Below, piece by piece: positions 9,871-42,383 of a stretch of DNA of 64,000 nt. Made by a program: the position numbers and the translations under genes. The notes under the pieces are model-generated. The model did not search any database, was not told the origin of the DNA, and was given only the letters and a program-made list of their open reading frames with translations. How positions within the stretch are numbered: position 1 is the stretch's first letter; each line of letters opens with the position of its first letter. The stretch is from Bacteroidetes bacterium GWF2_33_38. Its GTDB lineage: Bacteria; Bacteroidota; Bacteroidia; Bacteroidales; GWF2-33-38. The stretch lies in assembly GCA_001769505.1 (NCBI GenBank), contig MEOF01000018.1, positions 1 to 64,000 on the forward strand, read 5' to 3'.

Positions 9871-9934
9871 TCAAAGAGCGAGGCAAAAGAAAGTTGGATT
9901 TATGCATTCATCGAAGTCTTTATTATGAAGAGCA

Positions 9935-10049
9935 GTGTGAAATGCGAAGCATTCACGAAAACCACAACATAATAATTTTGAGAAATCGAGAGGTTCACGT
10001 ACAGTTCTGCGAGAGGTTTGGGGGTGAAACTCCCCTTTACCTACTCGAT
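9935..10049 (+). mobile_element. Degenerate group II intron 3' end (domains V-VI), copy 1
   Basis: The segment reads TTATTATGAAGAGCAGTGTG, then a hairpin (TGAAATGC GAA GCATTCA), then an insertion, then CGTACAGTTCTG, then GGGGGTGAAACTCCCC and CTACTCGAT. The order and end match group II domain V, domain VI and an AY-type 3' splice end. The domain V lower stem has an A-A mismatch where copy 2 has C-G, a sign of decay. No reverse transcriptase or 5' end is present. The 3' end stops 1-2 bp from the stop codon of the minus-strand Bro-N gene. Confidence 0.65.
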
Positions 10050-10050
10050 A

Positions 10051-10887
10051 TTATTCTTTAGTCTTTGATTTCAGTCCTTTTTTCTTTGTTTCAGGTAAAT
10101 AGTTTTGTTTAGTTACAACTTTTTTTCCTGATTTAATTTCAAGTTGTTTTCTTGCATCTCCTGCTATTTTTCCACCAACTTTCGCAGCTTTCTTATTCTG
10201 TTCAAATCCTTTCGGGTTTGTATTTACAACAATTTCTTTTGTAGATGCTTCTCCGAGCATTGAAAAGATTAACTCAAGGTCAGTCATGTGGTCTCTCAAG
10301 TTTTGACTTTTAAGTCCTTTCAAGTGCTTGTGCTGAGAGGGAGTTAGACCAAAAGTTGCTTTGGAGATTTCTGCTGTAAGAATTGAGTATTCAATTTGTT
10401 CTTTTATTCCATGATTATTCCATTCTTCGGTTAGTTCTTCTCGAATGGCAATACTTCGCATACGCTTTTCTATCCAATCATCAGGATAACCCTTTAGCTT
10501 GTATAGTTCACGTGTTCGCTGTGTGGCTAATTCTGGATTTTCAATTTCATCTAACCTGTCAGAACCAACTTGTGCCAACCATTGTTTAAAAGGTTCCGCT
10601 TTGGGTGATGGAATGGATTGTATTATTCTTAAAAGTCCTTTAGTATCTGATGCTTGCACTTTGCGTCTTTTGCCATCAGCAGCCTGCATTTCAACGAGGG
10701 TACAAATTGTACCCCAGTTCATTTTGAGCAACTCATCACGGCGAAGCATTTTTTTTAGATATTGCTTCACATCTGAACTGTCAGTCAATGCTTCTACTAC
10801 GTCTTGAACTGAAAAGTACCACTTATTCTCTTTTTCGTTCCAAATCGACCTTATTTTCTTGCTTTCGAAGAGTTTTATATTGCTCAT
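10051..10887 (-). CDS. Bro-N domain (prophage antirepressor-like / DinD-like) protein
   Basis: 278 residues. The N-terminus has the Bro-N pattern FESKKIRSIWNEKENKWYFS..DVVEALTDS and a later QWLAQVG motif, as in phage antirepressors. The C-terminal half (SILTAEISKATFGLTPSQHK..KGL..NLRDHMTDLELIFSMLGEA) matches the DinD-like arm of this family. The tail is Lys-rich and may bind nucleic acid. Such genes are often carried on mobile elements. It lies between two group II intron relics and directly beside another accessory gene (TIR/SEFIR). Its role here is unknown. Confidence 0.75.
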   Translation of the reverse strand: MSNIKLFESKKIRSIWNEKENKWYFSVQDVVEALTDSSDVKQYLKKMLRRDELLKMNWGTICTLVEMQAADGKRRKVQASDTKGLLRIIQSIPSPKAEPFKQWLAQVGSDRLDEIENPELATQRTRELYKLKGYPDDWIEKRMRSIAIREELTEEWNNHGIKEQIEYSILTAEISKATFGLTPSQHKHLKGLKSQNLRDHMTDLELIFSMLGEASTKEIVVNTNPKGFEQNKKAAKVGGKIAGDARKQLEIKSGKKVVTKQNYLPETKKKGLKSKTKE

Positions 10888-10906
10888 ATCTCAATCGTCT
10901 TTACTA

Positions 10907-10914
10907 CAAAAATA
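10907..10914 (-). promoter_or_regulatory. Bacteroidota -7 element upstream of the Bro-N gene
   Basis: On the minus strand the sequence reads TATTTTTG, a match to TAnnTTTG. It lies 20 bp before the ATG at 10887. A TTAG at 20 bp upstream would be a weak -33 element. Confidence 0.4.
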
Positions 10915-10960
10915 ATAAATTATTCTTGGTAAAGCTAATCAGGGTTGTTGCTAACCATAA

Positions 10961-11090
10961 TCGTAGCCTTTATTATGAAGAGCCGTGTGAAATGCGAAGC
11001 ATTCACGAATACCACAACTGAGTAATCGAGAGGTTCAAGCACGGTTCTGAGAGAGGTTTAAGGGTGAAATTCCCCTTTTTCTACTCGATT
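10961..11090 (+). mobile_element. Group II intron 3' end relic (domains V-VI), copy 2
   Basis: GAGCCGTG pairs fully with CACGGTTC to give the domain V lower stem, with an AG bulge before CACGG. The upper hairpin TGAA(A)TGC-GAA-GCATTCA is intact. Between the hairpin and the bulge sits a ~32-nt insertion ending GAGGTTCA, at the same place as in copy 1. Domain VI-like AGGGTGAAATTCCCCT and the end CTACTCGATT follow. The 3' end is about 6 bp from the stop of the TIR/SEFIR gene on the other strand. No intron 5' part or reverse transcriptase is seen. Confidence 0.7.
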
Positions 11091-11095
11091 TTCAT

Positions 11096-12544
11096 TTAAC
11101 GTATTGTTCCAATTTTTTCAATTTCTATAAGATTGTAAATAGGAATTACTCTATCAAATGAACGGGAATACCCAATCCGATTTTGATTTTTGTCTGCTTC
11201 TTTGAAAGCTAAAAGTTTGTCTTGTAACCCTTTTACAGAATTAACACTAAAAAGAACTTTTACTTTTTCAAAGTGTCTTAATGATATTAGTCTAGAGATA
11301 ACTTCAAATTTACCGTTGTCTCTTGTTCTGTATACATAAGTTATGGGAAACCAATAAAGGTTTTCTAAAGAGGCAATGTAATAAATTAGTAAATCGGCAT
11401 TTATAATGTCATCTAAGCTCACATTTTCAGGCAATCGCTTTATTATTAGGTCTGCCATAGGACTGAAGTAGTCCTTTGAATATGTTTGTTTGTAGTATTG
11501 GTCAAATATTTCCACATAATTGTATAGTTCATTAAACCTTTGAACTTCTTTTTTATAATCATGTCTGCCTTGAAAGAAATAACCAGAGTATAATATTTCT
11601 TCAACAAACTTGTATTTTTCACTTTTCAGTCCAATAGCTATTGTGTAAAGAAACATCTCGTGAATGAAAAATCTAAAATTGTCAAATTCACTTGGTGACC
11701 AACTACTCCTACCATCTTGAGGGTCTTTAAGTATTGGTAGCTTTTCAAAGAATCTAATAAATATATCTATATCAAATTCAATTTCACTTTTCAATAGTTT
11801 GTCAAGAAATGCCACATAGTCATTTCTCAATGAAGTGTATGAAACAATATTGTCGTGAATCGCCTTACCAAACACAATTACATCCATTGTCGAAACAACA
11901 TTTGCAGAATACCCTTTTAGGTCATCAAAGAAATTGTCAAGGAACTCTCTAACAATTGAATTAATTCGCCTTGGTGATTTTGAAATTTGGTTGTCAAAAC
12001 TTCTAACAATGCTTGAAGTTTTGTGGGTCATTGGTGTTTCTTCAAAAAGGTAACTAGGTGCTTTCCCTATTTTGGGCTTACTGTATGCCGGTCTTTGATA
12101 AATGTTTCTTAATAAAGACTCATAATTTTCTTCAAATTTATCTTGTTCGGAAAGGTCAATATAAATTCTCCCTTCAAGGTAAGTTGGGACACATGCGTTT
12201 CCATTTTCATTTTTCTCTGAAACAATTGGAATAAATTTTTCTTGTGATACGTCACCGTATATTTTAGGACTTATTATTTGGGTTTCTGTGCCAACTCCAC
12301 CAGCTCTTTGTTCTGCCTTTTCCGAATATTTCTTGTCTAGGATTATTAAAACCTTTTGAATGTCTTTTGATTTGACCATCGTCTCCATAAAGTCGAATTT
12401 GTCTTGACCCTCTTTTAAATTCCATTTGTCTATTACAACATCAACTCCGTCTGAAACCAATCTTTCAGCAAGATTAATAACCCAATCTTCATGAACAGGA
12501 TTTGTCCAACTGTATGATATAAATATTTTAGGTGTTTCTGTCAT
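11096..12544 (-). CDS. TIR/SEFIR-domain protein, candidate anti-phage or stress NADase-type effector
   Basis: 482 residues. The N-terminal ~150 residues form a SEFIR/TIR-type domain: KIFISYSWTNPVHEDWVINL, LVSDGVDVVIDKWNLKEG, then KFDFMETMV, whose Glu sits where TIR enzymes carry the catalytic glutamate, and KVLIILDKKYSEKA. The remaining ~330 residues are largely helical and unrecognised. In bacteria, TIR and SEFIR proteins act as NAD-degrading or signalling effectors in phage defence (family knowledge); that role is inferred here. No obvious partner sensor gene lies next to it, unless the Bro-N protein plays a part. The promoter region is a repeat shared with a gene 44 kb away. Confidence 0.75.
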   Translation of the reverse strand: MTETPKIFISYSWTNPVHEDWVINLAERLVSDGVDVVIDKWNLKEGQDKFDFMETMVKSKDIQKVLIILDKKYSEKAEQRAGGVGTETQIISPKIYGDVSQEKFIPIVSEKNENGNACVPTYLEGRIYIDLSEQDKFEENYESLLRNIYQRPAYSKPKIGKAPSYLFEETPMTHKTSSIVRSFDNQISKSPRRINSIVREFLDNFFDDLKGYSANVVSTMDVIVFGKAIHDNIVSYTSLRNDYVAFLDKLLKSEIEFDIDIFIRFFEKLPILKDPQDGRSSWSPSEFDNFRFFIHEMFLYTIAIGLKSEKYKFVEEILYSGYFFQGRHDYKKEVQRFNELYNYVEIFDQYYKQTYSKDYFSPMADLIIKRLPENVSLDDIINADLLIYYIASLENLYWFPITYVYRTRDNGKFEVISRLISLRHFEKVKVLFSVNSVKGLQDKLLAFKEADKNQNRIGYSRSFDRVIPIYNLIEIEKIGTIR

Positions 12545-42280: not shown

Positions 42281-42297
42281 TAGTTCAAACAAGGTTA

Positions 42298-42340
42298 TTT
42301 GAGAGGTTTAGGGGTGAAATTCCCCTTTTCCTACTCGATT
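42298..42340 (+). mobile_element. Group II intron 3'-end relic (domain VI only), copy 3
   Basis: GAGAGGTTTAGGGGTGAAATTCCCC followed by CTACTCGATT matches the end of copies 1 and 2 at 9935-10049 and 10961-11090. Domain V is missing. As in the other copies, the 3' end faces the 3' end of a gene on the minus strand, here 44 bp away. Confidence 0.55.
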
Positions 42341-42383
42341 TCTCTTATGTCGCTTATTCTAAATTTCTTTTAAAATTTAGCAA

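Follow-up and report, generated by a model that had tools for sequence, protein, structure and literature searches.

The two interrupted intron ends in the window (the whole 64,000-nt stretch of DNA that was analyzed) carry, inside catalytic domain V, copies of a separate, dispersed, non-coding element of about 45-55 nt. The intron ends themselves, c1 and c2, come from one group II intron lineage and are dead remnants of its 3' part, domains V-VI. We favor, at a probability of roughly 85%, a history in which a small non-autonomous element that targets TGAA would have landed in one relic of this lineage, and that relic would then have been copied until it stood at four places next to cassette-like genes. 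The same insert sequence is found at unrelated places, which points to a mobile element of its own rather than to a product of the intron. Even the most conserved part of a ribozyme can be strikingly changed by something from outside it.

Intron relics and the position of their insert

In both relics, a domain V helix that has the catalytic triad and the 2-nt bulge precedes domain VI, as judged from the group II model RF00029 and from alignment to L096, the nearest relative that encodes a reverse transcriptase (RT) (Table 1). The model scores c2 at 40.9 bits (E 1.4e-4), which passes the gathering score, whereas c1, at 31.5 bits, falls short of it. Further insert-bearing copies exist in the same genome: relics c3 and c4 lie about 1.1 kb apart on contig C40, at 69.9 and 71.0 kb, with the same insert. 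Domains I-IV and the 5' end GUGYG are absent from all four, whose truncation point lies close to where domain V starts (for c1, near the RT stop codon of the parent intron in the L096 alignment); intact relatives begin with GTGTGTCC. Since the four relics start at about domain V and no RT of the matching kind was found in their genome, they are unable to splice. Relics free of the insert also occur, in the window (domain VI only) and on C38 of the same genome. Set beside group II introns of Bacteroidia (RF00029; TIGR04416, RT-encoding and endonuclease-free), the relics have the same AGC triad, 2-nt bulge, domain VI and 3' end (...CTACTCGAY), but they are without domains I-IV and RT, and their insert is foreign to the intron family.

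Table 1. Intron relics, inserted elements and adjoining genes, in positions of the window
Feature	Position	Strand	Remarks
Group II intron relic c1	9919..10049	+	RF00029 match; alignment to RT-encoding relative L096; short upstream stretch, domain V 9930-10007 including insert, domain VI 10010-10049, 3' end CTACTCGAT
Inserted element in c1	9942..9985	+	44 nt; directly 3' of TGAA 9938-9941; gap against L096
Bro-N domain gene	10051..10887	-	Pfam PF02498; stop codon adjoins c1, antisense
Group II intron relic c2	10964..11089	+	RF00029; L096 alignment; domain V 10980-11047 including insert, domain VI 11050-11089
Inserted element in c2	10992..11025	+	34 nt; directly 3' of TGAA 10988-10991; gap against L096
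SEFIR/TIR domain gene	11096..12544	-	Pfam PF08357, PF13676; stop codon adjoins c2, antisense
Third intron relic	42283..42341	+	domain VI only, insert-free

Against L096, each of c1-c4 has one gap, always in the same position, following GTGTGAA or GTATGAA. The insert is therefore in the 5' strand at the tip of domain V, and the terminal GAGGTTCA is native. In close RT-encoding relatives, from other genomes in this order, domain V is continuous, GAGCCGTRTGAATCGAGAGGTTCAMGYACGGTTC, and is capped by a GAGA tetraloop. Their empty junction reads GTGTGAA/TCGAGAGGTTCA and their tip GAGCCGTRTGAATCGAGAGGTTCA; the AATCGAGAGGTTCA of the relics is this native tip with its GAGA tetraloop. The first-pass annotation had recognized that both intron ends share one interruption and that its removal leaves the canonical pairing of domain V, which holds for all four copies in the L096 alignment. 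It had, however, placed the interruption in the 3' strand, a position that the intact relatives and the L096 alignment rule out, and had counted the shared terminal sequence GAGAGGTTCA, which is native in the intact RT-encoding relatives, as part of the insert. This misplacement was possible because TTCA stands on both sides, and the insert sizes given then as about 42 and 32 nt are corrected to those of Table 1.

The inserts of c3 and c4 are 46 nt each. That of c1 has a decayed right end, TGAGAAA, and that of c2 a shortened A-rich loop, such that the difference in length between the two window copies comes from changes inside the insert. The four relics are 83-91% identical to one another over aligned positions, which argues that a single old insertion was copied together with the sequence around it. 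A covariance model of the element, R2, detects both window copies (48.5 bits at 9938-9986 in c1 and 45.3 bits at 10988-11026 in c2). The insert hairpin has only two matches in the window at up to 3 mismatches, at the c1 and c2 sites, where 0.01 is expected.

Sharing of the insert by four copies, together with the canonical pairing restored on its removal, could also be expected if domain V itself had evolved the insertion and stayed functional in a derived family of group II introns. Introns of this order also carry different palindromic inserts within or close to domain V, some of them repeated within a genome or shared between genomes (L080/L081, L098/L099), which lends this idea some plausibility. 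Yet none of the carriers has domains I-IV or an RT, the RT-bearing relatives have a canonical domain V, the insert stands alone at many unrelated places, and no domain V carrier from another genome appeared among the loci read from the R2 searches. Four carriers in one genome and no intact intron found with the insert indicate one inherited event and not a new intron family, and we reject the derived family as extremely improbable. The earlier proposal of a derived RNA family, not one accident, thus survives in its second half, as the insert predates the copies and is no chance accident of one relic. No derived intron family emerges, and no intact RT-bearing copy with the same insertion was found.

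Unrelated short palindromic inserts lie in or adjoin domain V at L039 (G019:C239), L072, L073, L080/L081 and L098/L099. One insert is shared by two copies in a single genome (L080/L081) and another across two genera (L098/L099), which suggests that some such inserts may be tolerated by moving introns.

All four insert-bearing relics stand antisense, immediately past the stop codon of a gene: Bro-N twice, SEFIR/TIR and ParE. The second Bro-N gene (L012 3989-4840, on C40) lies between c3 and c4, adjoining c3, and is 51% identical to the Bro-N protein of the window by blastp. Both Bro-N genes are bracketed by insert-bearing relics on either side, as if relic-gene-relic were a unit. Across the order, 22 of 55 intron ends have the stop codon of a gene in antisense no more than 50 nt away, and intact relatives have attC-like hairpins in their 5' exons. 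Insertion beside the stop codons of cassette genes resembles that of the integron-associated introns of PMC7923331, and the relic copies probably travelled with cassette-like genes, which fits both of these tendencies.

At several loci (L028, L029, L030, L086, L093, L096 and L100, and in the window at 10049 and 11089), intron 3' ends lie no more than a few bases from the stop codon of a gene in antisense, a pattern that may reflect integron-cassette-type targeting in Bacteroidia by AGC-triad introns. An integron attC identity of the relics themselves was rejected, given a misfit to the core-site consensus by eye and no integrase above the cut-off. The best recombinase of the genome, a 536-aa tyrosine recombinase (L115, G000:C56:2156-3766), resembles integron integrases in two pieces (126 and 102 bits), falls below the IntI cut-off and, by inspection, lacks the IntI insertion.

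Distribution and structure of the dispersed element

Among genomes sampled at one per bacterial or archaeal species, the hairpin pattern TGAAATGCNNNRCATTCAYGAA occurs at 109 places, nearly all in Bacteroidota and often several to a genome; about 7 would be expected by chance, by our own estimate from the length of the pattern. Most matches share a tail as well, YGAAYnCC followed by an A-rich stretch and RTGARTAA. With R2, the element is found in 106 of 395 genomes of the same class, about a quarter, and in 44 of 393 of the same order. Several genomes hold 10 to 14 copies, and the number reaches 14 or more per genome. Because the first set came from a fixed pattern and R2 was trained on that set, part of the conservation seen in the hairpin and in TGAA is a product of the search itself. 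Copies lie at start codons, in intergenic hairpins, in a GxxExxY gene and in another intron domain. Searches of viral contigs and plasmids gave no clear copies, the plasmids yielding weak partial matches only.

Two arrangements stand out among the loci. Four copies lie in tandem with a 195-bp period at L288 (G421:C19:54003-54652), and at L376, L377 and L378, in three different genomes, the element sits in the same AATCTGTGAA/TCTGTGG repeat.

Rfam 15 has no match, up to E 1, at the element in eight stand-alone loci, and none at the element in the window. No published description of such an element was found in the open literature searched. It appears to be a kind of short, dispersed, non-autonomous mobile repeat with no earlier description in that literature. 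If it is already on record, the likeliest place is among the atypical REPs of RAYT subclass 2.6 (PMC6006769).

The element follows its target TGA-A with a short hairpin and then TCA-YGAAY-nCC-A-rich loop-RTGARTAA, and each inserted copy has two helices. P1 is the variable hairpin at the left end, at whose foot the GA of the target pairs with TC of the element. Its stems change on both sides between genomes (ATGC/GCAT, ATAC/GTAT, ATC/GAT, ACC/GGT) around a constant GA/TC foot. P2, which was recognized because two alignment columns co-vary almost perfectly, pairs A/G-Y-GA-A-Y with R-T-GA-R-T/C and encloses tandem G.A pairs. In 100 distinct elements, pair 17-56 is A-T in 90, G-C in 5 and other in 5; pair 18-55 is C-G in 52, T-A in 40, T-G in 5 and other in 3; and pair 22-51 is C-G in 47, T-A in 46, T-G in 5 and other in 2. 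The alignment (A3) has 99.8% of its cells paired and a covariation score of 0.191, higher than in any of 500 shuffles (mean 0.098) or any slide (maximum 0.096). The covarying pairs enclose G.A and A.G, and both strands read Y-G-A-R there, a context known for tandem sheared G.A pairs. As the G.A pairs of this helix exist on the + strand only, that strand is probably the functional one, as DNA or as RNA. Energy folding returns the P1 hairpin, which is not exceptionally stable, and does not find P2. An obligatory third helix drawn from the flanks was set aside: their complementarity is 10.9 against 9.5 in shuffles (sd 0.34), but it comes partly from one Arenibacter group.

A sense-strand G.A motif is possible in RNA, and the element holds an internal complement of its target besides the covarying right-end helix. 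These features would suit mobility at the RNA level, by reverse splicing or reverse transcription at TGAA with TCA guiding the 5' side, as would the cassette surroundings that group II introns share. The element is, however, smaller than any known splicing ribozyme, its GAA triloops suit DNA equally, and the reading frame is kept in intact GxxExxY genes, which splicing would not require. We consider an RNA-level element very unlikely.

Insertion 3' of TGAA and regeneration of start codons

The element inserts 3' of (A)TGAA without clear target duplication. The tetranucleotide at its 5' side is TGAA in 70 of 100 elements, the sequence that R2 favors. In a gene for a small rhodanese-like secreted protein, G716 reads ATGAA/element/AAAATAC (L347), whereas the orthologous versions in G776 and G774 are empty, reading ATGAA/AAAACAC (L348) and ATGAA/AAAGAG (L350). 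This orthologous empty site confirms insertion and is the one orthologous case among three comparisons; the other two, L096 against the filled domain V of c1-c4 and the empty intron loop CTCCTGTAATGGGAG of L034 against L127, are of paralogous introns. The empty sites are equally compatible with no duplication and with a 2-nt AA duplication.

At ATGAA targets, the right end RTGARTAA regenerates an in-frame ATG or GTG start. The rhodanese-like protein changes from MKK... to MSKK... and its frame is kept because the right end of the element carries ATG-AGT-AA. Among 97 distinct elements with sufficient sequence, an open frame reaching at least 100 codons begins with the element's ATG or GTG in 19, whereas each of the other two frames has 2 such cases. 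The base before the target is A, as in a former ATGAA, in 18 of these 19 and in 27 of 85 elements elsewhere. Frame is also preserved within genes: in L227, L237 and L355, intact GxxExxY genes of different genomes (TIGR04256 confirmed for L227 and L355), the element lies in antisense at the same codon as an in-frame insert of 17 residues, TH...IRECFAF or IRECFAV.

Many of the N-termini that begin in the 19 start-supplying elements are signal-peptide-like, and the covariation of P2 takes in the start codon. Both observations would be expected of a cis-regulatory leader RNA of secreted-protein genes, in which P2 would mask the RTG start until a signal opened it, the remaining copies being by-products. 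About four fifths of the elements, however, lie away from gene starts, copies stand in introns, antisense inside GxxExxY and in tandem, and the orthologous empty start codon marks a recent insertion into a normal MKK start. A leader RNA is thus a distinctly improbable account of the element, and regulation may be a side effect of it.

Candidate movers and known systems

For the mobile element that we favor, movement would call on an enzyme encoded elsewhere. The strand would be folded, as single-stranded DNA or possibly RNA, and might be joined at TGAA by a recombinase acting in trans, in the manner of an HUH single-strand transposase, with pairing between the target and the internal TCA perhaps choosing the site. 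We propose such an enzyme because the HUH group is marked by a fixed 5' tetranucleotide, guide-like pairing and the lack of clear duplication (PMC6006769); a single hairpin and the lack of a GT[AG]G foot speak against a simple assignment. We hold the HUH mechanism as a tentative possibility, short of even odds, and give most of the remaining probability to a recombinase outside the recognized groups. The surroundings of Y1_Tnp genes (30 + 20 loci, about 1.5-2 kb) hold no clear element, with one weak 22-bit match at L297, and Y1_Tnp and Y2_Tnp are absent from several carrier assemblies (G716, G609). IS91-like Y2 transposases were rejected as the mover, being present in a minority of carriers and also in one non-carrier.

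A REP-like repeat mobilized by subclass 2.6 of the TnpA-REP (RAYT) proteins would be a more familiar identity. PMC6006769 describes this subclass as a Bacteroidetes group that has atypical secondary structures on its flanks and further copies of them at other places of the genome; phylum, non-GTAG ends, weak secondary structure and dispersed copies all agree with our element. Seven genes with the YIH[NQ/E]NP signature were located, but none has an adjoining element within the roughly 2 kb around it, and the 99% complete carrier G716 is without Y1_Tnp. We therefore regard this identity as unlikely, on a comparison with the description of these REPs.

More speculatively, the element could represent a minimal class of mobile element, widespread in Bacteroidia, whose whole cis machinery would span about 50 nt, with targeting by TGA/TCA pairing, closure by the covarying tandem-G.A helix, a right end that rebuilds starts and a mover outside the IS and RAYT groups. 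Insertion at ATGAA starts would then be nearly harmless, as the right end rebuilds them. We consider so distinct a class doubtful.

A mobile element of this size that restores the start codon at its insertion site would alter N-termini and leaders in many secreted proteins of Bacteroidia, would leave no obvious scar and would be missed by annotation. The covarying structure and the fixed target make the mechanism directly testable.

The ends of IS200/IS605 elements (HUH Y1, PMC6006769) insert 3' of a fixed tetranucleotide without clear duplication and use short-end pairing with guide bases beside a hairpin, traits that the element may share. The element differs from them in its total length of about 45-55 nt, in that the target itself forms the hairpin foot, and in that no cognate transposase was found. 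IS200/IS605-type hairpins near both ends are not present; there is a single left-end hairpin, and the right end pairs back to its foot. REPs and REPINs with their TnpA-REP (RAYT) proteins (PMC6006769, PMC3116915) are similarly short, hairpin-bearing, dispersed and non-coding, and insertions within genes that do not break the frame have been reported for REPs. Our element departs from them in having no GT[AG]G foot, a second covarying helix with tandem G.A pairs, a fixed TGAA target and no copy beside RAYT genes. Rickettsia palindromic elements (RPE, PMC4316617), compared by description only, are about 100-150 nt long and belong to another phylum, and the passage that describes them makes no mention of start-codon regeneration. 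As described there, they are, like the element reported here, short, selfish and palindromic, with copies between genes, in functional RNAs and in frame within genes.
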